39,802 nucleotides of DNA from Lachnospiraceae bacterium (GTDB lineage: Bacteria; Bacillota; Clostridia; Lachnospirales; Lachnospiraceae): NCBI GenBank assembly GCA_017557525.1, contig JAFYYN010000083.1, positions 1 through 39,802 of the forward strand. Reading direction: 5' to 3'. Positions 19,990-37,891 of this stretch are shown here, one piece after another. The notes beneath the pieces were generated by a model, which was not told where the DNA came from, did no database searches, and saw only the letters and a program-made list of their open reading frames with translations. The position numbers and the translations under genes are program-made. Positions within the stretch are counted from its first letter, which is position 1. Every line of letters starts with the position of its first letter.

Positions 19990-21255
19990 CTAACAAAGCA
20001 TTGCTACAGCCCTGTCGAGTATCCCCTGAAGGTAAGCTATGAGTATCCCGTAATTTACCACCGGTACGCCCTGATCCTCCGCACACTTGATGCGGTAGGT
20101 TATCTCGCGTTCATTGAGCATACAGCCGCCGCAATGGATCACCGCCTTGTATGCACTTAAGTCCTCAGGGAATTCCGTACCGGAACTCGTATCATATTCC
20201 ACCTCAAAGCCAAGCTTTTCCTTAAGCCACTTCGGGATCTTCACAGTTCCGATGTCATTGCACTGCCTGTGATGGGTACAGCCCTCGGATATAAGAACCT
20301 TGTCACCCTTTTTAAGCTCTTTTATGGCCTTTACGCCTTTAAGGGCACTGTCAAGATAACCCTTATATCGTGCTAAAAGTATTGAAAATGATGTAAGCGG
20401 TATATCTTCCGGTACTGCTTCCGCCACTTTTTTAAATACCTGACTGTCAGTAATGACAAGCTTTGGCTTTTCCTTAAGACTTGCTATAGCCCTTGCTGTT
20501 TCCTCTGTCTGAACGCATAGGCTCATGCCATGTTCGTCAAGGATATCACGTATCATCTGTACCTGCGGAAGTATTAGCCTTCCCTTAGGCGCGGCCTCGT
20601 CCTGAGGCATGACAAGGATGATCATGTCGGATGGCTCTATAAGGTCTCCTATAAGCCTTCTTTCAGAGTTTTCGGGTTTTACCGATGCTATCAGCTCACG
20701 AAGCTCATGGATATTGGTTTTATTAAGGGCTGATACATATATACATGGCACATCCTTACCGGTGATATTCTTATAAATAACCTCTTTATCAGTGAAAGCT
20801 TTCTGTGCCTCATCCTCTGTAGTGCTTTTTACATTGTCAGCGGATAAAGTTGTATTTGACACCATATCACTCTTATTAAATACAATAACGAAAGGGATAT
20901 TCTTTTTGGTCAGTCTTTCAGCCAGCTGTATGTCCTCATCAGATAATCCCGTTGTTGCGTCAGCCACAAGCACACCGATATCGGTCTTGTTCATGACCTG
21001 GCCTGCTTTCCTTACACGCAGCTTTCCAAGCTCTCCTTCGTCATCGTAGCCGGGTGTGTCTATCATGACCACAGGCCCCAAAGGGAGCAGCTCCATTGCC
21101 TTATATACCGGATCTGTGGTAGTCCCCTTTACATCGGACACTATTGCAAGCTCCTGGTTTGTTACTGCATTTACGAGGCTCGATTTGCCTGCATTTCTTT
21201 TGCCAAAAAATGCGATATGTATTCTGTCGGCACGTACTGTATCATTTAAGCTCAT
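19990..21255 (-). CDS. hydF: [FeFe]-hydrogenase maturation GTPase HydF
   Basis: 421 residues. GTPase domain: FFGKRNAGKSSLVNAV (P-loop), GTTTDPV (switch I), DTPGYDDEGELG (G3) and NKSD (G4). The C-terminal cluster-binding domain has the HydF ligand set CTHHRQCND near residue 330 and VIHCGGCMLNEREITYR near 378-394. HydF is the scaffold on which the 2Fe subcluster of the hydrogenase H-cluster is built by HydE and HydG. Neither HydE, HydG nor a hydrogenase is in the window. A 30-residue insert follows G4 (about 132-165). It starts 51 bases after the substrate-binding gene of the nitrogenase-like operon, on the same strand and with no terminator seen between them. Confidence 0.95.
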   Translation of the reverse strand: MSLNDTVRADRIHIAFFGKRNAGKSSLVNAVTNQELAIVSDVKGTTTDPVYKAMELLPLGPVVMIDTPGYDDEGELGKLRVRKAGQVMNKTDIGVLVADATTGLSDEDIQLAERLTKKNIPFVIVFNKSDMVSNTTLSADNVKSTTEDEAQKAFTDKEVIYKNITGKDVPCIYVSALNKTNIHELRELIASVKPENSERRLIGDLIEPSDMIILVMPQDEAAPKGRLILPQVQMIRDILDEHGMSLCVQTEETARAIASLKEKPKLVITDSQVFKKVAEAVPEDIPLTSFSILLARYKGYLDSALKGVKAIKELKKGDKVLISEGCTHHRQCNDIGTVKIPKWLKEKLGFEVEYDTSSGTEFPEDLSAYKAVIHCGGCMLNEREITYRIKCAEDQGVPVVNYGILIAYLQGILDRAVAMLC

Positions 21256-21306
21256 ATTTTTCCTTTCTTATCTTTGGAACATCGGCTATCAAAATGTTTC
21301 TGAAGC

Positions 21307-22476
21307 TTATTTCCCATTACCTACAAATCCTGTACCTGCTGCGGTTACGGGTGAGAATATCTTATTTGCCTGCTCGTCCGTAAGGGTGATGCCGAATACT
21401 TCGCTGTAATATTTCTTGGTTTCTGCTGTTATGTCTATATCCTCAAAAAGTGAAGGATATGCGGTCTTTGCAAGCCAGAGAAGTGTTACGGGGGTATCTA
21501 CACCACAGGTATAGCTCCTGTACATTCCGAGGGGCATCTTGTAAACTTCTTTGTTCTTGATGGCGTCTATCTCGCTCCAGTCGTAGTTGCCGATGGTATT
21601 ATTATAGAGGTCATCGGGTGTTGCGGTATTAAAGTTTGTGATGAAGATCAGTTCCGGGTTCCATGCGTATATCTGCTCCATGTTTACTGCTACGGAATTG
21701 TCGTTTTCAAGCTCTTCGCCTGCGTTTACGGCTCCGATAGCATCACACCACCACTGGCCGAAGAATTTCTTGCCGCTGGTCATGATATTTGAGTCTGAAT
21801 ACTGGAACAGGAAGAATGCTTTTACCTTGTCTTCTGCCTTTATACCGGATACTCTTTCCTGCACCAGTTTGTAGGTTTTTTCCGAGTATTCCCTAACTAT
21901 CTGGGATTTATTGTTTTCGGGGAATATCTGTACTAATGTGTCTATCCACTGATTGAGGGTTTCTATTGCGTTATAGCCCCATTTCCCGGGTGAGATTGCG
22001 ATGGCAGGAATGCCAGCGTTTCTTAAGAGTTCGCCTTCTTCTTTACTGCCGGCACTATAGAATACTACGTCGGGGTTAAGCTTTAAGAGTTCTTCCAGGT
22101 TGATGTTTGTGCCGTCGATGAAATCGGTTTTGGCGTTAAGTATTTCTGGATAAAGCTCGCCGAGCAGTCCGTTTTTTGCGGCACTCATGCAGGGCGGTGC
22201 CATTCCGACGATTTTTTCTGCGGAGTCAAAGAATACTGTGAGTACGGATGCCATAGGGTAAATGTCGGCTATTACTATTCTGTTTACGGTGTTGGGTACT
22301 GCTACTTCGTTTCCGGCATGATCGGTTACGATGTGGGTACCGTTAGGGTCAAGGGTTTCCGGTGCTGTGGATGTTTCAGTCTGGGTAGGAGGCTGGACAT
22401 CGTTTTTGTCGTGGCTGCTGTTGCAGGCGGTAAGTGCCAAGGTGAATACCAGCAGGAGTGCTAATAGTTTCTTCAT
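21307..22476 (-). CDS. ABC transporter substrate-binding lipoprotein (FecB/BtuF type)
   Basis: 389 residues. Signal peptide MKKLLALLLVFTLALTAC with lipobox LTAC, lipidated at Cys18, then a Thr/Pro-rich linker and the periplasmic-binding-protein-2 fold: VTDHAGNEVAVPNTVNRIVI opening and LLKLNPDVVFYSAGSKEEGE. This family carries iron-siderophores, haem, cobalamin or oxyanions into FecCD-type permeases. The specific ligand cannot be told; aromatic residues (FFGQWWCDAIGAVN) near 240 may line the pocket. Permease and ATPase genes lie upstream on the same strand, with the reductase genes between, so the three transport parts are split by the enzyme. Confidence 0.9.
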   Translation of the reverse strand: MKKLLALLLVFTLALTACNSSHDKNDVQPPTQTETSTAPETLDPNGTHIVTDHAGNEVAVPNTVNRIVIADIYPMASVLTVFFDSAEKIVGMAPPCMSAAKNGLLGELYPEILNAKTDFIDGTNINLEELLKLNPDVVFYSAGSKEEGELLRNAGIPAIAISPGKWGYNAIETLNQWIDTLVQIFPENNKSQIVREYSEKTYKLVQERVSGIKAEDKVKAFFLFQYSDSNIMTSGKKFFGQWWCDAIGAVNAGEELENDNSVAVNMEQIYAWNPELIFITNFNTATPDDLYNNTIGNYDWSEIDAIKNKEVYKMPLGMYRSYTCGVDTPVTLLWLAKTAYPSLFEDIDITAETKKYYSEVFGITLTDEQANKIFSPVTAAGTGFVGNGK

Positions 22477-22507
22477 TTTTGTATACCTCGTTTTCTTGTA
22501 TTCTTAT

Positions 22508-22756
22508 ATGGACGGTCAAAGTACCGATACAGTCTAAAACCGATAATCGCACTTGCAGGGATATGCTAATGGCTGCAAACCTATCTCCGCTTCAGACGCT
22601 TGCAATCGTGCCCCCGCTTGATAGCGGGTGCACTTGGGCTACGCTCAAAAATCGGTTTGGTTAACCGATTTTTGCCTCGCTCCGATAAGTCTGCAACCAA
22701 AGCATATCCTCTGCGTGCTTATGGTTTTATCCTGTATCGGCACTCCGACCGTCCTT
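22508..22756. repeat. large imperfect inverted-repeat element within the operon
   Basis: Arms pair over nearly the whole length: GGACGGTC/GACCGTCC (22510-22517/22747-22754), CCGATACAG/CTGTATCGG (22524-22532/22732-22740), AAAACC/GGTTTT (22536-22541/22723-22728), and a GGATATGCT/AGCATATCC segment (22559-22567/22701-22709). The centre carries two extra hairpins: CCCGCT-TGAT-AGCGGG inside GTGC/GCAC (22608-22633) and AAAAATCGGTT/AACCGATTTTT (22647-22673). It fills most of the 363 bases between the second NifDK-like gene and the binding protein. MITE or structured RNA are both possible. Confidence 0.8.
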
Positions 22757-22839
22757 AAAATCTCTAATATAATTGTAGATTCCAATACATCCATACAAAT
22801 TTATATTGTAGCTACTGTTCAGCTGGATAATATGTGTTT

Positions 22840-24147
22840 TCAAACGAATCTTTTAAAAGGAACATCTTCTACTATATTGGGAATATCCTTCCTATATATT
22901 CTTCCTGAAAATGCTTCGTGCGGATAATCTACAAATTTGATCTTTTCTGTATTTACTTTGCCATTTTGTTTAGCTGCAAGCTTTATTACTGGTTTAAATA
23001 ACGGATCTGCTATTATCATTTGAAGCTCATCCAAAGATGAAATTACTTTTATTATTTCATCCTCATCCGAATCGGTCGTTGCGTATCCAAGACATGTTTT
23101 TCCTGTTTTTTCATGAAGATATTTGGCTAATGAAAGAACATTTACCCGTTCTCCCAATATAAGAATTTTCGTAGTTTGTTCTGTGTTGTTTCTCTGCTCT
23201 TCTAACAAATTATTAGGAGAGAATTTCTCATCATTATTGTTATTTTTATTGTTATTTTTTTCACCTTTTGTTTCATATTCTTCGGTTACATCAATATCTA
23301 TGCCGCCTACAGGGATTCCGATCTTGTAAGGTATCCCATATTTTTCTTTTAGCTTCTTTGCTGCTTTAATTCCTGTTTCCGACACTACGATATTCAGGTC
23401 TGCTTCGGCAGCCTTTTTGATATCTTCCAACGTTGAACCCATTGCCCAAGAGGATAATATTTCGTACCCTTTAGATTCGTAATATTCCTTTATCGATCTG
23501 TCACTTCCGTTTACTGAAAAATCAAGTGGCGTAAGTCCAAGTATGTTAATTTTTTGTTTCGTTACTGAAACTGTACTTCTATCAATATTTCTATTGGTAT
23601 TTTCATCTGAATTTGCGCCTGTATTTGTACATGTTTTTTTGTTTTGATTTTCAGCATAGACGTCAAAATTGACTTTTTCCTGTAATGACTTATTATCAGG
23701 TTCTTTTACAAATCTGTCTGCAAGCATCTCAAATGCAAGGGATGCGCCATGCACATATGATTTCATTCCAGTGGTTGAAAACCCAAATGCAGGTATTCCC
23801 GTTCTTTCTTCTATTACTTTTGCTGCTGCATCTGCATCGAAGCCTGTCATGGCAGGGATTGTTGTACCGACTATAGCTATGAATTTGGGGTTCAGTTCTT
23901 CTGCTGCCGTTACCACGTCATTTATCAGTTTTGAGTCGTCCCCCATTATTGCTTCAACTTCTGTGAGACCTGATATGTACACCATGCTGTCCATGTCATA
24001 CCAGCGTGGTTCGTCATGTGTTGTATATGTTGAATTGCATCCTGATGCATCGTGCATTACTATCATGCCGCCCAGCTCATAAAGTGCTGAGCATACTCCA
24101 AATGCGTCTGCTGAATATGTTGATATAAATCCTGATGTCTGTTTCAT
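22840..24147 (-). CDS. nitrogenase-like component 1 subunit (NifK-like)
   Basis: 435 residues; AGGAACGAGAA precedes the ATG. The N-terminus FGVCSALYELGGMIVMHDAS GCNSTY mirrors the NifK/BchB region that supplies the first two P-cluster cysteines (here Cys19 and Cys37). The third position, usually Cys in a TTC motif, is IVGTTIPAMTGFD, with no Cys. NILGLTPLDF (about 201-210), SSWAMGSTLEDIKKAAEADL and KYGIPYKIGIPVGG are component-1 Rossmann motifs. Residues about 151-198 and 292-326 are Asn/Thr-rich inserts. It begins 13 bases after the partner subunit. A nitrogenase-superfamily reductase subunit; substrate unknown. Not a true NifK. Confidence 0.85.
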   Translation of the reverse strand: MKQTSGFISTYSADAFGVCSALYELGGMIVMHDASGCNSTYTTHDEPRWYDMDSMVYISGLTEVEAIMGDDSKLINDVVTAAEELNPKFIAIVGTTIPAMTGFDADAAAKVIEERTGIPAFGFSTTGMKSYVHGASLAFEMLADRFVKEPDNKSLQEKVNFDVYAENQNKKTCTNTGANSDENTNRNIDRSTVSVTKQKINILGLTPLDFSVNGSDRSIKEYYESKGYEILSSWAMGSTLEDIKKAAEADLNIVVSETGIKAAKKLKEKYGIPYKIGIPVGGIDIDVTEEYETKGEKNNNKNNNNDEKFSPNNLLEEQRNNTEQTTKILILGERVNVLSLAKYLHEKTGKTCLGYATTDSDEDEIIKVISSLDELQMIIADPLFKPVIKLAAKQNGKVNTEKIKFVDYPHEAFSGRIYRKDIPNIVEDVPFKRFV

Positions 24148-24160
24148 TTCTCGTTCCTTT

Positions 24161-25729
24161 TTACCCGTTACAACAGTTTCCGCAACCGAGTCCTTTTATC
24201 TGTACAAGGCTTCTCATGTCTTTGATATTTACGAAGGCATCCCGCATCAATTCAAGCGTGTCGATTATGGCTTCAAATCCGAACATTCCTCCACCTTCAA
24301 CGATATTTACAAAATAATTGGTGTTAAGGAAATATGCCGCTTTCTGCCCTATGGCAAGCCATTTTGACCTAAAATCTTTGTTTTCTCCCAATTCTCCAGT
24401 ATTATTCTGTATCTGATCGTCTGAATCTCTGCTCATCGATGAGTTGCAGGATGCCATGAATCTTGATTTTACATTTACGGTTGCATACAGTTCCAAATCC
24501 GGATAATAATCTTTTAGGAATTCGTAGTCTGCTTTTTCTTCTCCGGTGAAACTGTCCAGATAAATCCGCTTAACGTTAAAGCCATGTGTTAACAGCATTT
24601 TCGCTACAGATATTGGTCTTGGGCAGAATGTATAATCTATGGCAATCGGTGTATCACCTATCATTGCAAGTGCTTTCTCGAACGCTTTTTCACATAGTGC
24701 TATTTCGTTTTTATATAATTCTGCTGTTGTTGTTTCTTTTGTTTTCTCAGTATTTTCTTTTATTTTGTCAGCTGAGTTGTTATCTTCTTTGTTATTTATT
24801 TTTTCCCCGTTTTCATTATCTGTTATTGTATTTTCAGAAATATTATTGGAGTTTAATCTGTTGCATAGTACATCATTTGTTCTGTTTTTTATAATTTCAT
24901 TTTTAACATGTTCCAAACTATGTATTATCTCATCATAATCCCAGCTGTAGGGAAGATAAATATGTTTTCCCCCAAGTCTTTTCGCTAGTGTATCCCCTCC
25001 TGCTTTTGCTGCGGGGTAATAAGTGAAATACAGAGCACTTTCTGCCATCTCCTGATATTCAGCGTAAGTTTTACAGGATGTTATTTCGTGTATTTTTAAT
25101 CCGGATGATTTTAATATTTTATAGAGATCTGAGTTTTCCTTTGTAGGCAGGTCGTTTCCGATGATGGCTACTGCATTGCTGTTGATTTTTCTTGGTTTCA
25201 GCAATGCGTACAGCTGTCTTCTCATTATCTGGTCAGGAGTTAGTCCGCTTTTTCTAAGTGTCGGATTCATATAGCAGTCAACTATATCAATATCCGGGAA
25301 TCGTTCTCTTAATGTCCCAAACATTACTCCCCAGTCACAGCCTGTAAAATGATGGACACAGCTTGTATATACGAGCACTGCGGGTGGTCTTTTCTCAAGT
25401 TTGTTTATTATATCGCTCACGCCGTCTATCAGCAGTTCTTCCAGATTTCCATCCAGAAGGTTGTTTTCTTTTACTTCTACTGTTGAAAATCTGTCGAGCG
25501 CGTTCATTTCCGCAGCTGTAAGTACGACGCCTCTTAGACAGCTTGCGGCACATACAAATATTTCATGTACTTCGGGAATAAGCATCCCGGTATGTACTAT
25601 GTTCCATGTCCCTCTCGCGGGTGATGAATATTCAAGCCCGCCAGAAAAAGGTACCGGAAATGAAGCGTCACCCATCCGGACTACTGCACCGTTTTCTGTT
25701 ATTTCATGTTCTCCAATTTTTCTTAACAT
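24161..25729 (-). CDS. nitrogenase-like component 1 subunit (NifD-like)
   Basis: 522 residues. Candidate cluster ligands are Cys60 and Cys64 in IFVCAASCLRGVV and Cys124/Cys131 in VYTSCVHHFTGCDWG; the C-terminus adds a Cys116-type triad, GLGCGNCCNG (Cys516, 519, 520), which I do not know from NifD. The segment corresponding to the FeMo-cofactor cysteine of NifD reads LYFTYYPAAKAGG, so that ligand is absent. Inserts at about 281-335 and 428-452 are Asn/Glu/Lys-rich. Its start overlaps the NifH-like stop by 7 bases, so the two are coupled. It should pair with the 22840-24147 product and receive electrons from the NifH-like protein. Substrate unknown. Confidence 0.85.
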   Translation of the reverse strand: MLRKIGEHEITENGAVVRMGDASFPVPFSGGLEYSSPARGTWNIVHTGMLIPEVHEIFVCAASCLRGVVLTAAEMNALDRFSTVEVKENNLLDGNLEELLIDGVSDIINKLEKRPPAVLVYTSCVHHFTGCDWGVMFGTLRERFPDIDIVDCYMNPTLRKSGLTPDQIMRRQLYALLKPRKINSNAVAIIGNDLPTKENSDLYKILKSSGLKIHEITSCKTYAEYQEMAESALYFTYYPAAKAGGDTLAKRLGGKHIYLPYSWDYDEIIHSLEHVKNEIIKNRTNDVLCNRLNSNNISENTITDNENGEKINNKEDNNSADKIKENTEKTKETTTAELYKNEIALCEKAFEKALAMIGDTPIAIDYTFCPRPISVAKMLLTHGFNVKRIYLDSFTGEEKADYEFLKDYYPDLELYATVNVKSRFMASCNSSMSRDSDDQIQNNTGELGENKDFRSKWLAIGQKAAYFLNTNYFVNIVEGGGMFGFEAIIDTLELMRDAFVNIKDMRSLVQIKGLGCGNCCNG

Positions 25730-26511
25730 ATCAATCTCTCCGCGAGTTTTCTGTACTCTTCAGCCATGGAGCTTTCAGGGAATGCCTCTACCACGGTTTT
25801 ACCAAGTTCCTCGGCCTCCCAGACGGTTTCGCTCCTCGATAATTCACCGACTATCTCGGTTTCAAAGTCTTTGGCAAGCTCCATTACTTTTTCATTTTCC
25901 AGTTTTACATCCCTATGGTTAAGTATAAGGCCTCCGAGTGTTGCGTAGCCTTTTTCCTTAAAGCCCTGAACAGCCATGGCTATGTTCGCTGCGGCATGTA
26001 TTGCCATGTTTTCTCCGGACGTAATGATATACACTTTATCAGCATACCCGGTGCGCATGGGCATCGAAAAGCCTCCGCAGACTACATCGCCCAATACGTC
26101 ATAAAGCACGATATCCGGCTTGTATATTTCATAGGCGCCCTTTTCTTTAAGTTTGTCAAGCGCAGCAATTATTCCTCGGCCTGCACATCCTACTCCCGGA
26201 GCCGGTCCGCCTGCTTCAACGCATATTACTCCAAAGGCGCCTTCTATTGCCATATCTTCCAAGGTAAAATCGTTGCCTCGTTCCCTGATAAGCTCAAGAA
26301 CCGTTTTTATTTTGGGTCTATATTTGTCCCTGGGGTCTTCAGAGTTTACTTCTAAATTCTGTTTTCCTCTCAGACTGAGAGTCGAATCTGCTTTCGGATC
26401 GCAACCTATCTGCATTACCTTATATCCGTCCAAAGCAAGTGCTGCTGCTACATTTGATACTGTTGTGGATTTTCCTATTCCACCTTTTCCGTAAATCGCT
26501 ATCTTTTTCAT
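25723..26511 (-). CDS. NifH-like ATP-dependent iron protein
   Basis: 262 residues from ATG 26511 (AGGAACGAT upstream; an earlier in-frame start at 26544 lacks a ribosome site). P-loop YGKGGIGKSTTVSNVAAALA; the two cluster cysteines of the dimer are in GPAPGVGCAGRG and DVLGDVVCGGFSMPMR, both intact. It is the full NifH/BchL/CfbC type: a homodimer holding one 4Fe-4S cluster and delivering low-potential electrons to component 1 on ATP hydrolysis. Length is slightly shorter than NifH (about 290) at the C-terminus. The order H-D-K matches other two-component systems of this superfamily. No insert is seen, unlike its partners. Confidence 0.93.
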   Translation of the reverse strand: MKKIAIYGKGGIGKSTTVSNVAAALALDGYKVMQIGCDPKADSTLSLRGKQNLEVNSEDPRDKYRPKIKTVLELIRERGNDFTLEDMAIEGAFGVICVEAGGPAPGVGCAGRGIIAALDKLKEKGAYEIYKPDIVLYDVLGDVVCGGFSMPMRTGYADKVYIITSGENMAIHAAANIAMAVQGFKEKGYATLGGLILNHRDVKLENEKVMELAKDFETEIVGELSRSETVWEAEELGKTVVEAFPESSMAEEYRKLAERLIC

Positions 26512-26675
26512 ATCGTTCCTATTCCCATAACCAACTAATGCCACTATCTCACCAACGATGCCACCTTCCTATCGCCAGTGAGGGTATCATAAATTGAAAT
26601 TTTTAACTTTTGACCACAATGCTACATATATCAATATATCTTCTCAACAAGAGGTCTTTGTAAAATACAACATAG

Positions 26676-27476
26676 TTAAGATGATATATACAACGGTACT
26701 ATGTTTTTGATCACTTCACCGTTTACTTTCATCTCATTTATTACCGCTTTTACACCAAATACATCTTCAATTGTTTTCTCGTTTACTATTTCCGAGGTTT
26801 TTCCGAAATACGCCTGTTTTCCGCCGAGTATCAATGAACAGTCCGCTTTCTGGAGCGCATGTTTCGGATAATGTGTATTGAAAATACAGCTAATCCCTTT
26901 GTTTTTGAGTGAATCCATGGTATTCAGGACTACCAGCTGATTTCGGAAATCAAGACCCGATTCCGGTTCATCGAGAATAAGCAGTTCCGGGTCTGATACT
27001 AAAGCTTTTGCAATCAGCACCATTTGGAATTCACCACCGCTCAAGGTGTTACAGTCCCTGTTTTTATAAGCTATGATCCCCAGTTCTTCCATGATCTTTT
27101 CTGCTGCTTCGATATCACTTTTCTTTGGCGTACTTAAGAATCCAATCTGGCCTGATCTGCCAAGCAGTACGCTTTCAAACGCGGTAAATGAGGATGTTGC
27201 CATCCGTTGTTGTGGCACATAGCTTACCTTGTTCCAGAATTCCTTTGAGCTTAATGTGTTTGTATCCTTGTCGTCGAAATAACTTTTTCCTGATGTCCAT
27301 TTGCGCATACCCATCAGGCATCGTAAGAACGTGGTTTTTCCGCTTCCGTTAGGTCCGAGAATTGCCATTATGCCTCCGCCTTCAAGGTCTATATTTACAT
27401 CACGGAAGAGATATCTTTTTTCTTCGTCGGTTTTCCCAGGGTATGCAAATGATGCGTTTTCTGTTCGTAATCTCAT
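26676..27476 (-). CDS. FecE-type ABC transporter ATPase
   Basis: 266 residues from ATG 27476; a TTG five codons earlier is possible, and neither has a strong ribosome site. Walker A is LGPNGSGKTTFLRC, Q-loop VSYVPQQ, signature NTLSGGEFQMVLIAKAL (LSGGE), Walker B LLILDEPESGLD, H-loop FNTHYP. This is the ATPase of a cobalamin/iron-chelate type importer; it pairs with the FecCD-like permease immediately upstream. A gap of 165 bases separates it from the NifH-like gene. Confidence 0.92.
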   Translation of the reverse strand: MRLRTENASFAYPGKTDEEKRYLFRDVNIDLEGGGIMAILGPNGSGKTTFLRCLMGMRKWTSGKSYFDDKDTNTLSSKEFWNKVSYVPQQRMATSSFTAFESVLLGRSGQIGFLSTPKKSDIEAAEKIMEELGIIAYKNRDCNTLSGGEFQMVLIAKALVSDPELLILDEPESGLDFRNQLVVLNTMDSLKNKGISCIFNTHYPKHALQKADCSLILGGKQAYFGKTSEIVNEKTIEDVFGVKAVINEMKVNGEVIKNIVPLYISS

Positions 27477-27568
27477 AAATATATTGTCCAAATTTTCTTT
27501 GCAGATTAAAAAATATTAACTCATAAGCAAGCGTGGGGGCGGCAGATTGTTTCGCCACATCAGTTATT

Positions 27569-27594
27569 CAATCAGAGAACCGTCCCTGTGATTG
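27569..27594. repeat. half copy of palindromic repeat forming the end of the permease gene
   Basis: CAATCA and TGATTG flank GAGAACCGTCCC, the core of the GGGACGGTTC family. The permease frame runs into it, so its last seven codons and stop (SITGTVL) come from the repeat. Confidence 0.65.
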
Positions 27595-28567
27595 ATTTTC
27601 TACGATATGTCAAAATGAAGATAAAGAACGGTGCTCCGATTATCGCAGTCAGTATTGAAACCGGTATTTCTGCGGCACTTATCGAACGTGCTACTGTATC
27701 AACTATCACCATAAATGCTGCGCCAATACTTATGGAGGCCGGAATGAGCTTTTTATTGTCCTGACCCCAGATCATCCTGCACATATGAGGTACTATAAGC
27801 CCTACCCAGCCAACCTGTCCGCACATTGAAATTACGGATGAAGTCATGGCTGCAGCACATATAACTACAAGTGTCCTTAGGAGTTTTACATTTGTACCCG
27901 ATGCGATCAGCTCGTCCTCAGAAAGACTTAAGAGGTTCATTCTCCAACGCAATAGAAATATTATTATGATGCTTATGATAATTATGGGGGCACCCATCGC
28001 CAGGTTTTTATAGCCTGCACTGCCCAGACTTCCCATAAGCCAGTAGGTAATGGCCGGGAGCTGTGTTTCTGCATCTGCTACAAATTTCACCAGAGAAACC
28101 AATGCCGAAAACAGTGAACCCACCATTATTCCTGAAATTATAAGGACTGCTGGTCCATGATTTCTGCCTGAGGCTGCAAGTTTTGTAACCAGCACTGCTC
28201 CTGCTCCGAATAAGAACGAAAGCACCTGAACTCCTATCATATCAAAGCCGAGAAGAAGACCCAATGCGGCTCCAAAGCTTGCACCACCTGCCACTCCCAT
28301 TGTATCGGGCGTTGCCAGCGGATTGGAGAAAAAACTCTGGAAGCTGCATCCTGCTACGGCTAACCCGGCACCGCAAAGGAGCCCTAAAAGGATTCGCGGC
28401 AGTCTCACATTTATTATAGTTATCCTGACTGTGCCTTTTATTTCTTCAGAGCCTGTAAGAGCTTTTATTACCTCTCCGGGGCTTATCCCGATCCTGCCGA
28501 TACAGAGGCATACCAGCGCTATTACAATCGGCAGCATTATTAAAATTATTATTGTTGTTTTTTTCAT
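27572..28567 (-). CDS. FecCD-family ABC transporter permease
   Basis: 331 residues from ATG 28567 (AGGA close upstream). About ten membrane spans; family motifs are RITIINVRLPRILLGLLCGA (start of the conserved core), GCSFQSFFSNPLATPDTMGV, GGASFGAALGLLLG and GWVGLIVPHMCRMIWG. FecCD/BtuC-type permeases import iron-siderophores, haem or cobalamin as homodimers. It is the first structural gene after the TM1266-like regulator. The extreme C-terminus is encoded by a dispersed repeat, so the native end has probably been replaced by a few residues. Confidence 0.93.
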   Translation of the reverse strand: MKKTTIIILIMLPIVIALVCLCIGRIGISPGEVIKALTGSEEIKGTVRITIINVRLPRILLGLLCGAGLAVAGCSFQSFFSNPLATPDTMGVAGGASFGAALGLLLGFDMIGVQVLSFLFGAGAVLVTKLAASGRNHGPAVLIISGIMVGSLFSALVSLVKFVADAETQLPAITYWLMGSLGSAGYKNLAMGAPIIIISIIIIFLLRWRMNLLSLSEDELIASGTNVKLLRTLVVICAAAMTSSVISMCGQVGWVGLIVPHMCRMIWGQDNKKLIPASISIGAAFMVIVDTVARSISAAEIPVSILTAIIGAPFFIFILTYRRKSITGTVL

Positions 28568-28642
28568 GCTTCCTATCAACCCTGTCTTATGCTCATCATC
28601 AAAAAATGCAACAAGGAAAAAATTATACCGGATTCTAAATAA

Positions 28643-28891
28643 TTACTTTACATTAGAGTAGTTGGTCTTCGCCGAAATACCATGAAGTCTTCCAATTTTT
28701 CCGGTCATGGCATTTATATCATTTTCCGGGGCATCAATTGCTACACAGATAATGTTTACGTTTTTCTCTTTGTACGGTAAACCCATCCTGCCTATTATAC
28801 CTTCACGGTACTGGGTAAGAATTGCGTTTAACGCCTCAACCGAGGCTATGTCTTCCACTATTATAGATACTACTGCTACTCGTTTTTCCAT
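28643..28891 (-). CDS. TM1266-family iron-only hydrogenase system putative regulator
   Basis: 82 residues: RVAVVSIIVEDIASVEALNA, then LTQYREGIIGRMGLPYKEKN, ending MTGKIGRLHGISAKTNYS. This is the small ACT/NikR-C-like family named after Thermotoga TM1266, which accompanies the hydE/hydG/hydF maturation genes in many anaerobes; no ligand or target is established. AAGGATCAGAGAAAA precedes the start. Here it is followed not by hydE/hydG but by the transporter and nitrogenase-like genes, with hydF at the far end. Confidence 0.88.
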   Translation of the reverse strand: MEKRVAVVSIIVEDIASVEALNAILTQYREGIIGRMGLPYKEKNVNIICVAIDAPENDINAMTGKIGRLHGISAKTNYSNVK

Positions 28892-29082: not shown

Positions 29083-29113
29083 AAAAAACCGTACCTTAAA
29101 AAGATACGGCTTT
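29083..29113 (-). terminator. intrinsic terminator of a short leader-like transcript
   Basis: Minus strand CCGTATCTT, loop TTT, AAGGTACGG form a 9-bp stem with one mismatch, followed by TTTTTT. It lies between the promoter at 29257-29285 and the TM1266-type gene at 28891. Confidence 0.8.
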
Positions 29114-29183
29114 CAACATAATCATCATTGTTATAATTATTTTGTAAAGTTTGGAAGCGTTTATCAACTGTTAAGGAAATATC

Positions 29184-29213
29184 CTACACATTTGGGTTTT
29201 CTTCCCTTGCCAT
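29184..29213 (-). CDS. possible 9-residue leader peptide
   Basis: ATG with GAGGTG seven bases upstream opens a frame MAREENPNV then TAG. It sits about 40 bases downstream of a near-consensus promoter and 70 bases before a terminator. After the TAG the same frame stays open for another 40 codons, so a decayed small gene is also possible. No homologue is recognised. Confidence 0.3.
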   Translation of the reverse strand: MAREENPNV

Positions 29214-29256
29214 ATCTTTCACCTCAAAACTTGTTTTCGGTGTCAGGTTTTAAGCA

Positions 29257-29285
29257 ATTATATTATGCTAATCCACTTTTGTCAA
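29257..29285 (-). promoter_or_regulatory. consensus sigma-A promoter, leader of the 28891-19990 region
   Basis: Minus strand TTGACA (29280-29285), exactly 17 bases, TATAAT (29257-29262): a perfect match to consensus. It points toward the TM1266/nitrogenase-like operon and away from hicAB, whose stop is 50 bases upstream. Confidence 0.8.
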
Positions 29286-35757: not shown

Positions 35758-35776
35758 AATATACGAGGGAGGAACC

Positions 35777-35795
35777 ATCATGCCGAAGGCATGAT
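35777..35795 (+). promoter_or_regulatory. GH31 leader hairpin overlapping a 4-codon frame
   Basis: ATCATGCC-GAA-GGCATGAT is a perfect stem-loop, enlarged by GGAAC/GTTCC on either side (35771-35806). GGGAGGAACCATC precedes an ATG inside the stem that opens M-P-K-A-stop. It lies 75 bases upstream of the GH31 start. Confidence 0.4.
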
Positions 35796-35869
35796 ATATC
35801 ATGTTCCGACCGACTGGCCGCCGAACGAATGTGAGGGGGCAATACATATTATACGAGGAGGATAACAAC

Positions 35870-37891
35870 ATGACATTTGAAAACCAAAACGGAGCCCTTG
35901 TCTGTTACAAGAGCGGTGAACAGGTAAAAATCGAGCCCTGGGGTGCTGATTCTTTAAGAGTCAGGGCTACCATGCAGACTGAATTTACAGGAAAAGACTG
36001 GGCTCTTACCGAAAAGATTGAAAAAGGAACTGCAGTGATCACCATCGGTGAAGAGGATTTCTGGGTAGGTGACGGAAGCATTTCCAAACAGCCAACAGCC
36101 ACTATTGTTAACGGACGCGTTAAGGCAGTGGTAAATTTCGCAGGAGTCATCTCATTCTATAAAGACGAAAAACTCATATTACGCGAGTATTTCCGTTCAT
36201 ACGGCGGTACTCTTTCAAAGGAGAGCAGATGTCTCAAGGTTGTTAACCGTGAGTGGAAAGGGATTATCGGAGGAAGCGAATATTCTCTTAATGTAAAATT
36301 TGAGAGCAACAAGGGTGAAAAGATTTTCGGCATGGGCCAGTACCAGCAGGAAAACATGGAGCTAAAGGGCTGCGTACTTGAGCTTGCACAGCGCAATTCC
36401 CAGATTTCAGTTCCTTTTGCAGTATCATCTCTCGGATATGGCTTCTTATGGAATAACCCTGCAGTGGGCCGTGTTACCTTTGGAAACAACTATTATGAGT
36501 GGATTGCAAGAGCAACCAAGGAAATGGACTACTGGATTACCGTTGCTGATACTCCCAAGAAGCTGCTTGAAAACTACACCGAAGCTACAGGACATGCAGA
36601 TATGTTCCCCGAGGATCTGATGGGACTTTGGCAGTGCAAGCTTCGTTACAGGACACAGGACGAGGTTTTGGAAGTTGCACGTAAATATAAGGCAGAGGGA
36701 ATTAAGATCGATCAGATCGTTATCGACTTCTTCCACTGGACAGTACAGGGCGACTGGAAATTTGACAAGACATACTGGCCGGATCCCAAGGCTATGGTGG
36801 ACGAGCTCCATTCCATGGGCATCAAGGTTATCGTATCTGTATGGCCCTCTGTTGACAGGAAGAGCGAGAATTTCTATCCTATGATGGAAAAGGGACTTCT
36901 TATAAAGACAGAGCGCGGCGCTGCCCAGACCTATGATTATCAGGGCGACTGCGTGGAAATTGATCCGTTTAATCCTGAGACCAGGAAATTTGTTTGGGAG
37001 AAATGCAAGCAGAATTATTACGATTTCGGTATCGACGCATTCTGGCTTGATAATTCCGAGCCCGATTACGGCGTATACGATTTTGAGAATTACCGTTACT
37101 GCGATGGTCCTGCTCTGGCACTTTCAAATATGTATCCTCAGATGTACAGCAGGGTATTTTATGATGAGATGTCAAAATCAGGAAAGCCTGTAGTCAACCT
37201 GCTCAGATGCGCATGGGCAGGCTCACAGAAATATGGGAATGTGGTTTGGTCAGGTGATGTGCCTTCAACATTCGAAGCCTTCAGAGATCAGCTGCAGTGC
37301 GGTCTTAACATGGGTCTTGCAGGTATTCCCTGGTGGACAACCGACATCGGCGGTTTCATGACTGACGACGTAAATGATCCTGATTTCAGGCAGCTGCTTA
37401 TCCGCTGGTATCAGTTTGCTGTTTATTCGGCAGTTCTCCGTATGCATGGCGACAGAGGTCCTTATAATATCCCGCCTCTTGATACCCGTGACTGGGGTGG
37501 CGGATATCTTCATACAGGCCAGCCTAATGAGCTCTGGAGCTATGGTGAGGATAATTATGCGATCATGAAGAAGTATTATGATATAAGGATTGCTATGCAT
37601 GACTATATCAAGTCGCTTTACCAGGAAGCTCACACAAACGGCTCACCGCTTATCCGTCCTATGTTCTATGAGTTCCCCGATGATGCCAAGTGCTGGGAGC
37701 TCCAGGATCAGTATATGTTTGGCGCTAAGTACCTGGTAGCACCGGTAATGCACCTCAATGAGTTTAAGCGCGATGTATATCTTCCCACAGGCTCTTGGAA
37801 GCTTACCTCAACCGGCGAGGTTTACGAGGGTGGTAAGACCATTAGTGTAGATGCACCTATTGATTATATGCCGGTGTTCGAGAAACTTTAA
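35870..37891 (+). CDS. glycoside hydrolase family 31 alpha-glycosidase
   Basis: 673 residues from ATG 35870 (ACGAGGAGGATAACAAC upstream); the frame opens earlier at 35801 but without a ribosome site. N-terminal beta-sandwich (about 1-240), then the catalytic barrel: IVIDFFHWTVQGDWKFDKTY, IKVIVSVWPSVD, nucleophile in DAFWLDNSEPDYGVYD (Asp of WLD), acid/base in VVWSGDVPSTFEAF, and GIPWWTTDIGGF. No signal peptide, so it acts on imported oligosaccharides. The NSEPD form and WTTDIGGF point to alpha-xylosidase or alpha-glucosidase; specificity cannot be fixed. Not near other sugar genes. Ends at the palindrome terminator 37922-37968. Confidence 0.92.
   Translation: MTFENQNGALVCYKSGEQVKIEPWGADSLRVRATMQTEFTGKDWALTEKIEKGTAVITIGEEDFWVGDGSISKQPTATIVNGRVKAVVNFAGVISFYKDEKLILREYFRSYGGTLSKESRCLKVVNREWKGIIGGSEYSLNVKFESNKGEKIFGMGQYQQENMELKGCVLELAQRNSQISVPFAVSSLGYGFLWNNPAVGRVTFGNNYYEWIARATKEMDYWITVADTPKKLLENYTEATGHADMFPEDLMGLWQCKLRYRTQDEVLEVARKYKAEGIKIDQIVIDFFHWTVQGDWKFDKTYWPDPKAMVDELHSMGIKVIVSVWPSVDRKSENFYPMMEKGLLIKTERGAAQTYDYQGDCVEIDPFNPETRKFVWEKCKQNYYDFGIDAFWLDNSEPDYGVYDFENYRYCDGPALALSNMYPQMYSRVFYDEMSKSGKPVVNLLRCAWAGSQKYGNVVWSGDVPSTFEAFRDQLQCGLNMGLAGIPWWTTDIGGFMTDDVNDPDFRQLLIRWYQFAVYSAVLRMHGDRGPYNIPPLDTRDWGGGYLHTGQPNELWSYGEDNYAIMKKYYDIRIAMHDYIKSLYQEAHTNGSPLIRPMFYEFPDDAKCWELQDQYMFGAKYLVAPVMHLNEFKRDVYLPTGSWKLTSTGEVYEGGKTISVDAPIDYMPVFEKL

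Follow-up and report, generated by a model that had tools for sequence, protein, structure and literature searches.

Nitrogenase-like genes beside an importer and HydF: a candidate substitute for HydG in Clostridia

Why should genes for a nitrogenase-like reductase lie among those for a FecBCD-type importer and the hydrogenase maturation protein HydF? The question is raised by a 39,802-nucleotide stretch of DNA (‘the window’; contig JAFYYN010000083.1, positions 1 to 39,802, assembly GCA_017557525.1) from a Lachnospiraceae bacterium. A sequence-only reading of this DNA had put forward an eight-gene, single-strand cluster in which an imported ligand would be reduced, or its metal released, by the reductase. 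We propose a different answer. Judging by gene content across genomes, the three reductase genes (nH, nD and nK; collectively nHDK) probably take over the function of HydG, the enzyme to which all the CO and CN ligands in the H-cluster of FeFe hydrogenases are attributed (PMC9431212; this paper and PMC3464626, below, are each cited from part of their text). The cluster itself was confirmed from open reading frames and profile matches; all eight genes occupy the minus strand between 19990 and 28891, and in order of transcription they are:

28643..28891, minus strand: regulator of the TM1266 family (TIGR03959, 104 bits; cut-off 60.8)
27572..28579, minus strand: FecCD-type importer permease (PF01032, 276 bits)
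26676..27491, minus strand: importer ATPase (PF00005)
25723..26544, minus strand: nH, NifH-like ATP-dependent reductase (PF00142, Fer4_NifH, 275 bits)
24161..25729, minus strand: nD, component-1 subunit with clade-specific Cys and His (PF00148, Oxidored_nitro, 36.7 bits; cut-off 28.6)
22840..24147, minus strand: nK, component-1 subunit (PF00148, 103 bits; cut-off 28.6)
21307..22476, minus strand: FecB-type substrate-binding lipoprotein (PF01497, Peripla_BP_2, 67 bits)
19990..21255, minus strand: HydF, scaffold GTPase of the H-cluster (TIGR03918, 559 bits; cut-off 325.55)

The gaps between these genes, in the same order, are 63, 80, 131, −7, 13, 363 and 51 bases; the H-D-K order, the 7-base overlap of nH with nD and the 13-base gap between nD and nK had all been read exactly. 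Translation of nH probably starts at 26511, at an ATG 33 bases downstream of the listed GTG, which is where the aligned family begins. The closest NCBIfam models for the importer ATPase are the F420-0, haem and Fe-dicitrate types, each scoring below its own cut-off. We found no further PF00148 protein in the window's genome, which is 92.5% complete.

Our argument begins with the distribution of HydG in two samples: 201 genomes at the family level, the window's own included, and 393 Clostridia genomes at the class level (completeness of at least 90% requested). Matches to nD occur in 22 genomes of the family sample (in a tally of 200), 14 of which, counting the window's, fall into the window's clade by a score above 200 bits. 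In the class sample this clade comprises 19 genomes spread over nine families, all scoring at least 486 bits, and the next best match scores 339.6. The two sets have only G000 in common, giving 32 nD-clade genomes in all. HydF is present in 260 genomes of the class sample, and HydG in 241. All 19 nD genomes carry HydF and none carries HydG, whereas HydG is found in 234 of the 241 other HydF genomes (Fisher, 2e-23); viewed from the other side, nHDK is present in 19 of the 26 HydF genomes that lack HydG. Since relatives are not independent, we also permuted within families (0 HydG among nD genomes observed vs 11.7 expected, p ≤5e-5) and within genera (0 vs 3.6, p 6.5e-4). The two alternatives meet inside a single genus, g252: six of its genomes have nD without HydG, and four have HydG without nD. 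The family sample, with HydF in 119 genomes (in one of these below cut-off), agrees: HydF occurs in 13 of the 14 nD-clade genomes, and HydG exceeds its cut-off in 0 of these 13 vs 97 of the 106 other HydF genomes (p 6e-12), with genome G047, which carries a HydG fragment, counted as HydG-less. Over both samples together, HydF is above cut-off in 31 of the 32 nD-clade genomes and HydG in none.

Could HydG simply have been lost, leaving free CO and cyanide, present inside the cell or around it, to supply the diatomic ligands while nHDK does an unrelated job? According to work cited in PMC9431212, HydE and HydF by themselves give a low level of activation when CO or cyanide is added, and seven of the 260 HydF genomes in the class sample lack both HydG and nHDK (G338, G436, G439, G481, G508, G519 and G553). 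Seven is, however, within the range that gaps in draft genomes could give, and of the 26 HydF genomes without HydG, 19 have nHDK, a coincidence also seen within genera; we consider simple loss very unlikely. G439, we note, has HypD and a NiFe hydrogenase.

A different stand-in may be imagined: another radical S-adenosylmethionine enzyme, e.g., ThiH, might have taken over from HydG, with nHDK serving some other step. ThiH cleaves tyrosine, as HydG does, and ThiH-like proteins are encoded in many nD genomes; matches to the HydG model below cut-off were ThiH in both proteins scanned, to which eight more align with 60–85% identity. Yet ThiH also co-exists with HydG in other genomes, and at E 1e-50 it has no match in the window's genome, G134, G117 or G069 (at E 1e-3 each of these four shows one weaker match, which is HydE). 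On these two counts we rejected ThiH, and a takeover of this kind seems to us scarcely credible.

The remainder of the maturation machinery has been kept. HydE candidates from 20 nD genomes all match TIGR03956 (591 bits for that of the window's genome), and an FeFe hydrogenase domain was present in 31 of the 31 genomes searched, with three such proteins in the window's genome, one of them bearing all three H-cluster loops. Among nine proteins inspected with motifs that we take to be those of the loops, six have all three, two have two and one has the third only. The set resembles HydE-HydF-HydG maturation in its HydF gene at the locus, its HydE, its TM1266 regulator and its FeFe hydrogenases; the difference is that HydG is absent from all 32 nD genomes, which have nHDK with either an importer or HypCDEF instead. 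HydF had earlier been viewed as a possible cluster donor to the reductase or a mere passenger. That view finds no support in HydF and TM1266 travelling together with nHDK in genomes devoid of HydG.

Another key observation concerns what accompanies nHDK. Scanning genome contigs returned at least 551 nD relatives among at least 596 matching stretches, of which 80 loci were kept; the order importer-H-D-K-FecB recurs in metagenome-assembled genomes named Lachnospiraceae, Oscillospiraceae and Mogibacterium, and in Intestinibacter bartlettii, so that the arrangement is not due to chance. We name as form A the order TM1266, FecCD, ATPase, H, D, K, FecB and HydF, seen in the window, L033 (without HydF), L034 (with HydE added) and L041; I. 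bartlettii is also of form A. In form B, H-D-K and TM1266, often with HydF, are joined by a second nitrogenase-like set, H'D'K', together with HypF, HypC, HypD and HypE, either alongside H-D-K or elsewhere in the same genome. At the form-B locus L043 all four Hyp proteins exceed their NCBIfam cut-offs, and Clostridium carboxidivorans P7 carries the order H'D'K'-HypFCDE-HDK at locus L121. There is also a more distant clade, C, in which HDK is found with FecBCE and without TM1266 or HydF (L047–L050 and L052; also 5979–12275 of L175, the Treponema saccharophilum plasmid pTS1).

At no nD locus were importer and HypCDEF seen together. Calls were made by tblastn, since greedy-ORF (open reading frame) gene maps miss genes: among 107 distinct nD loci, 62 have the importer, 22 have HypCDEF, none has both and 23 are without a call. 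The reductase-FecBCD linkage on which the sequence-only reading was built is thus frequent, and not constant. Restricting the count to the 55 loci flanked by 6 kb or more on each side leaves 38 with the importer and nine with Hyp genes; in 50 of the 55, a TM1266 match is found no more than 9 kb from nD, and at least one of TM1266, HydE and HydF is nearby in 52. Of the 32 nD genomes, 22 have HypD; of 10 HydG genomes picked as controls, six of them from genera that also include nD genomes, none does. The importer stands at the locus in all 10 nD genomes without HypD, the window's included, and the 22 with HypD do not have it anywhere in the fetched stretch. Twenty of these 22 genomes lack a NiFe hydrogenase, and the remaining two have a second HypD; in C. 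carboxidivorans one of two HypD adjoins the NiFe hydrogenase. Form B therefore resembles the HypCDEF route to the Fe(CN)2CO group of [NiFe]-hydrogenase in its HypF, C, D and E, and differs from it in being joined to two nitrogenase-like sets, in most cases with no NiFe hydrogenase; the window's form has no Hyp genes. An nD tree of 84 tips requires four or more changes of form, vs a mean of 19.5 after shuffling, and so the exchange of importer and Hyp genes has been repeated, yet the forms are also inherited.

Bearing these patterns in mind, we hypothesize that nH, driven by ATP and holding one 4Fe-4S cluster, would reduce an nD-nK complex, and that this complex, in the place of HydG, would supply an iron-carbonyl-cyanide synthon for HydE and HydF to convert into the 2Fe subcluster of the H-cluster. 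In form B (22 of 32 genomes), iron-bound CN and CO would come from HypCDEF, with participation of H'D'K'; in form A (10 of 32, the window included), the FecBCD-type importer stands in HypD's place and would probably bring in an Fe-CO/CN compound or a source of its ligands. We infer three elements of this scheme, namely the action of nHDK in making or reducing the synthon, a flow in the direction of HydF, and the identity of the importer's cargo. The direction from nHDK to HydF is made more likely by the linkage to HydF and TM1266, by the occurrence of HydE wherever it was checked, and by the absence of HydG. We can speculate further, with considerable doubt, that Nif-like, Hyp and Hyd lineages have been united in one pathway in which nitrogenase-like reductases convert Fe(CN)2CO made by Hyp proteins into the H-cluster synthon without HydG, and that the importer form lives on a cross-fed organometallic hydrogenase precursor, that is, an Fe-CO/CN compound or ligand source from other microbes.

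What kind of reductase might do this? nHDK has the hallmarks of the nitrogenase superfamily: a NifH-type P-loop ATPase with conserved cysteines, and two subunits of the component-1 fold. The earlier suggestion of an uncharacterised member of this superfamily was borne out: nD and nK form their own clades (ultrafast bootstrap 100 and 96, respectively) in trees where known systems were represented by Nif and BchNB alone, with a single set of each. The clades are as distinct as had been anticipated; the further expectation, that they would always be linked to a transporter, was not upheld, in view of the 22 loci with HypCDEF instead. nH is below the NCBIfam cut-offs of NifH (301 vs 394 bits), of CfbC, from the CfbCD system of F430 synthesis (289 vs 402), of BchL (180 vs 345) and of BchX. 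Its residues C108, C120 and C156 are invariant in an alignment of 20 relatives; which two of them bind the cluster we presume from NifH numbering. No NCBIfam model matched nD, and nK scores 41 bits vs the BchB cut-off of 490. In structure searches, among the matches listed, nK is closest in fold to BchB, and nH to chain D of 9fmg, an entry titled methylthio-alkane reductase complex (MarHDK). Likeness of fold notwithstanding, the system differs from the dark-operative protochlorophyllide oxidoreductase BchLNB in that the nD and nK clades are separate from BchN and BchB, and in that no photosynthesis genes were seen in the window's gene maps.

The cysteines of nD (AlphaFold model, mean predicted local distance difference test score 82.8) are highly conserved: C60, C64 and C124 in 29 of 29 sequences, C152 in 28, C516 in 27 and C519 in 26. 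Besides the fold, which is shared with NifHDK and NifEN, counterparts of NifD Cys88 and Cys154 are present in nD, and of NifK Cys95 in nK; three or four cysteines are found at the inter-subunit cluster site. In contrast, a MAFFT alignment with Serratia NifD shows that both ligands of the FeMo-cofactor have been lost: nD has Tyr, Asn or Leu for Cys275, and Asn for His442 in 27 of 29. By these ligands, nHDK is not an N2-fixing nitrogenase. The D' subunit (L043, 14988–16292, and relatives) has an invariant cysteine set of its own, unlike that of nD, with an adjacent CC, a CxxC and others in 8 of 8 sequences. We considered selenocysteine in D' and rejected it: the internal TGA in five D' matches is an ordinary stop near the C-terminus.

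The clade-specific Cys and His of nD, and the presence of HypCDEF with no NiFe hydrogenase in 20 of 22 genomes, would also suit a separate metalloenzyme, in which nHDK and HypCDEF build their own CO/CN-iron cofactor with maturation assisted by HydE and HydF. Such an arrangement would provide no CO and CN for the FeFe hydrogenases that these genomes also encode, and would not explain why HydG is absent; we give it next to no weight.

That brings us back to the importer, and to the idea that FecBCD takes up haem, a corrinoid, a siderophore or an oxyanion that nHDK reduces or demetallates, HydF and TM1266 being neighbours only. The importer does adjoin nD in 62 of the 107 loci, the fold of nK is closest to BchB, the sister clade C has neither TM1266 nor HydF alongside (the T. 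saccharophilum plasmid being one case), and HI_1472 is the nearest to FecB of the named solved chains among the matches listed. None of this accounts for HydG being absent from all 32 genomes, for HypCDEF replacing the importer in 22 of them, or for the linkage to TM1266, HydE or HydF in 52 of 55 well-flanked loci. A free-standing import-and-reduce system is probably not what the window encodes, and we judge this explanation improbable, albeit the foremost of the alternatives; clade C, present both in genomes that have HydG and in genomes that do not, may be such a separate importer-reductase system, nearer to what the sequence-only reading had in mind. The same exchange of the importer for HypCDEF and a second HDK leads us to read the imported ligand as an Fe-CO/CN source rather than as a tetrapyrrole. 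FecB is well conserved (63% mean column identity over 22 relatives), and its ligand is therefore probably fixed.

Several observations weigh against nHDK as the substitute for HydG. The weakest link in this proposal is what the importer would bring in: among the solved chains listed as matches, FecB comes closest to 4ovk (212 bits), which carries no named function, and HI_1472 (117 bits), which we take to be a molybdate/tungstate binder, and the likeness to HI_1472 would suit an oxyanion more than an Fe-CO/CN complex. An oxyanion alone, on the other hand, would not explain HypCDEF standing in for the importer, as an Fe-CO/CN complex or a ligand source would. Clade-C HDK-FecBCE is importer-linked in genomes that have HydG or lack HydF, and the partnership with an importer may therefore predate any role in H-cluster assembly. 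G048 (L049) has HydF without HydG or HypD, and its only HDK is of the clade-C type with FecBCE; this genome may be an intermediate or represent another route. There are exceptions to the reciprocal pattern as well: G175 is an nD genome without HydF over cut-off; G377 has a HydG-like match of E 6.6e-66 that is below cut-off (G377 and G470 were taken as the two HydG matches so tallied in the class sample); and HydF genomes with neither HydG nor the nD clade number seven in the class sample and nine in the family sample. HydG can be missing for other reasons, such as draft assemblies, a fragmented gene (G047) or additional routes. In eight of the 55 well-flanked loci neither importer nor Hyp genes are nearby, and the HydE count covers 20 of the 32 nD genomes, a 21st candidate being cut by a contig end.

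Parts of this pattern have been described before. In Coprococcus catus and Dorea longicatena, Dos Santos 2012 (PMC3464626) reported NifHEN-like genes in two copies that are linked, associated with hydrogenase maturation proteins and suggested to help assemble an active-site metallocluster; NifHDK-like genes linked to transporters were also noted. Those NifHEN-like genes share with ours the counterparts of NifD Cys88 and Cys154 and NifK Cys95, and are probably our form B. In the part of that text used here, HydG and HypD receive no mention, and neither an importer form nor a replacement of HydG is stated. Di Leonardo 2022 (PMC9431212) found hydE and hydF without hydG in five of eight acetogens, C. 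carboxidivorans among them, and HypCDEF without HypAB in five acetogens; in C. carboxidivorans, HypC, D and E are each present twice. Its authors saw no straightforward explanation for the missing hydG, free CO or cyanide being one suggestion. The main text of a Clostridium autoethanogenum transposon paper (PMC9004356), so far as it was available, is without mention of nitrogenase, HypD, HypF or maturation. We found no proposal of a nitrogenase-like replacement of HydG in the literature searched, outside of which lie most subscription journals and bioRxiv.

If nHDK does replace HydG, a nitrogenase-like second route would change the picture of HydG as the sole source of CO and CN, and an orphan branch of the nitrogenase superfamily would acquire a function. 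It would also account for two findings of PMC9431212 in gas-fermenting clostridia, the missing hydG and the presence of HypCDEF but not HypAB, and would bear on H2 production in the gut and rumen. For engineers, it would offer a new maturation set, and the origin of the CO and CN ligands could be tested in organisms devoid of HydG's tyrosine cleavage.

Upstream of the cluster lies one further feature:

29257..29285, minus strand: candidate operon promoter, TTGACA-17-TATAAT, matching at 12 of 12 positions (promoter-like matches overall are no commoner than in shuffles)

Between this element (29285–29257) and the TM1266 start at 28891 there is a terminator-like hairpin (29114–29084, minus strand). 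Together they may form an attenuated leader, possibly; 29084–29285 has no match in Rfam. Elsewhere in the window, on the plus strand, a GA-cis RNA (RF02987, 74.4 bits; 35763–35850) overlaps the start of an open reading frame (35801–37891) that resembles alpha-glucosidases.

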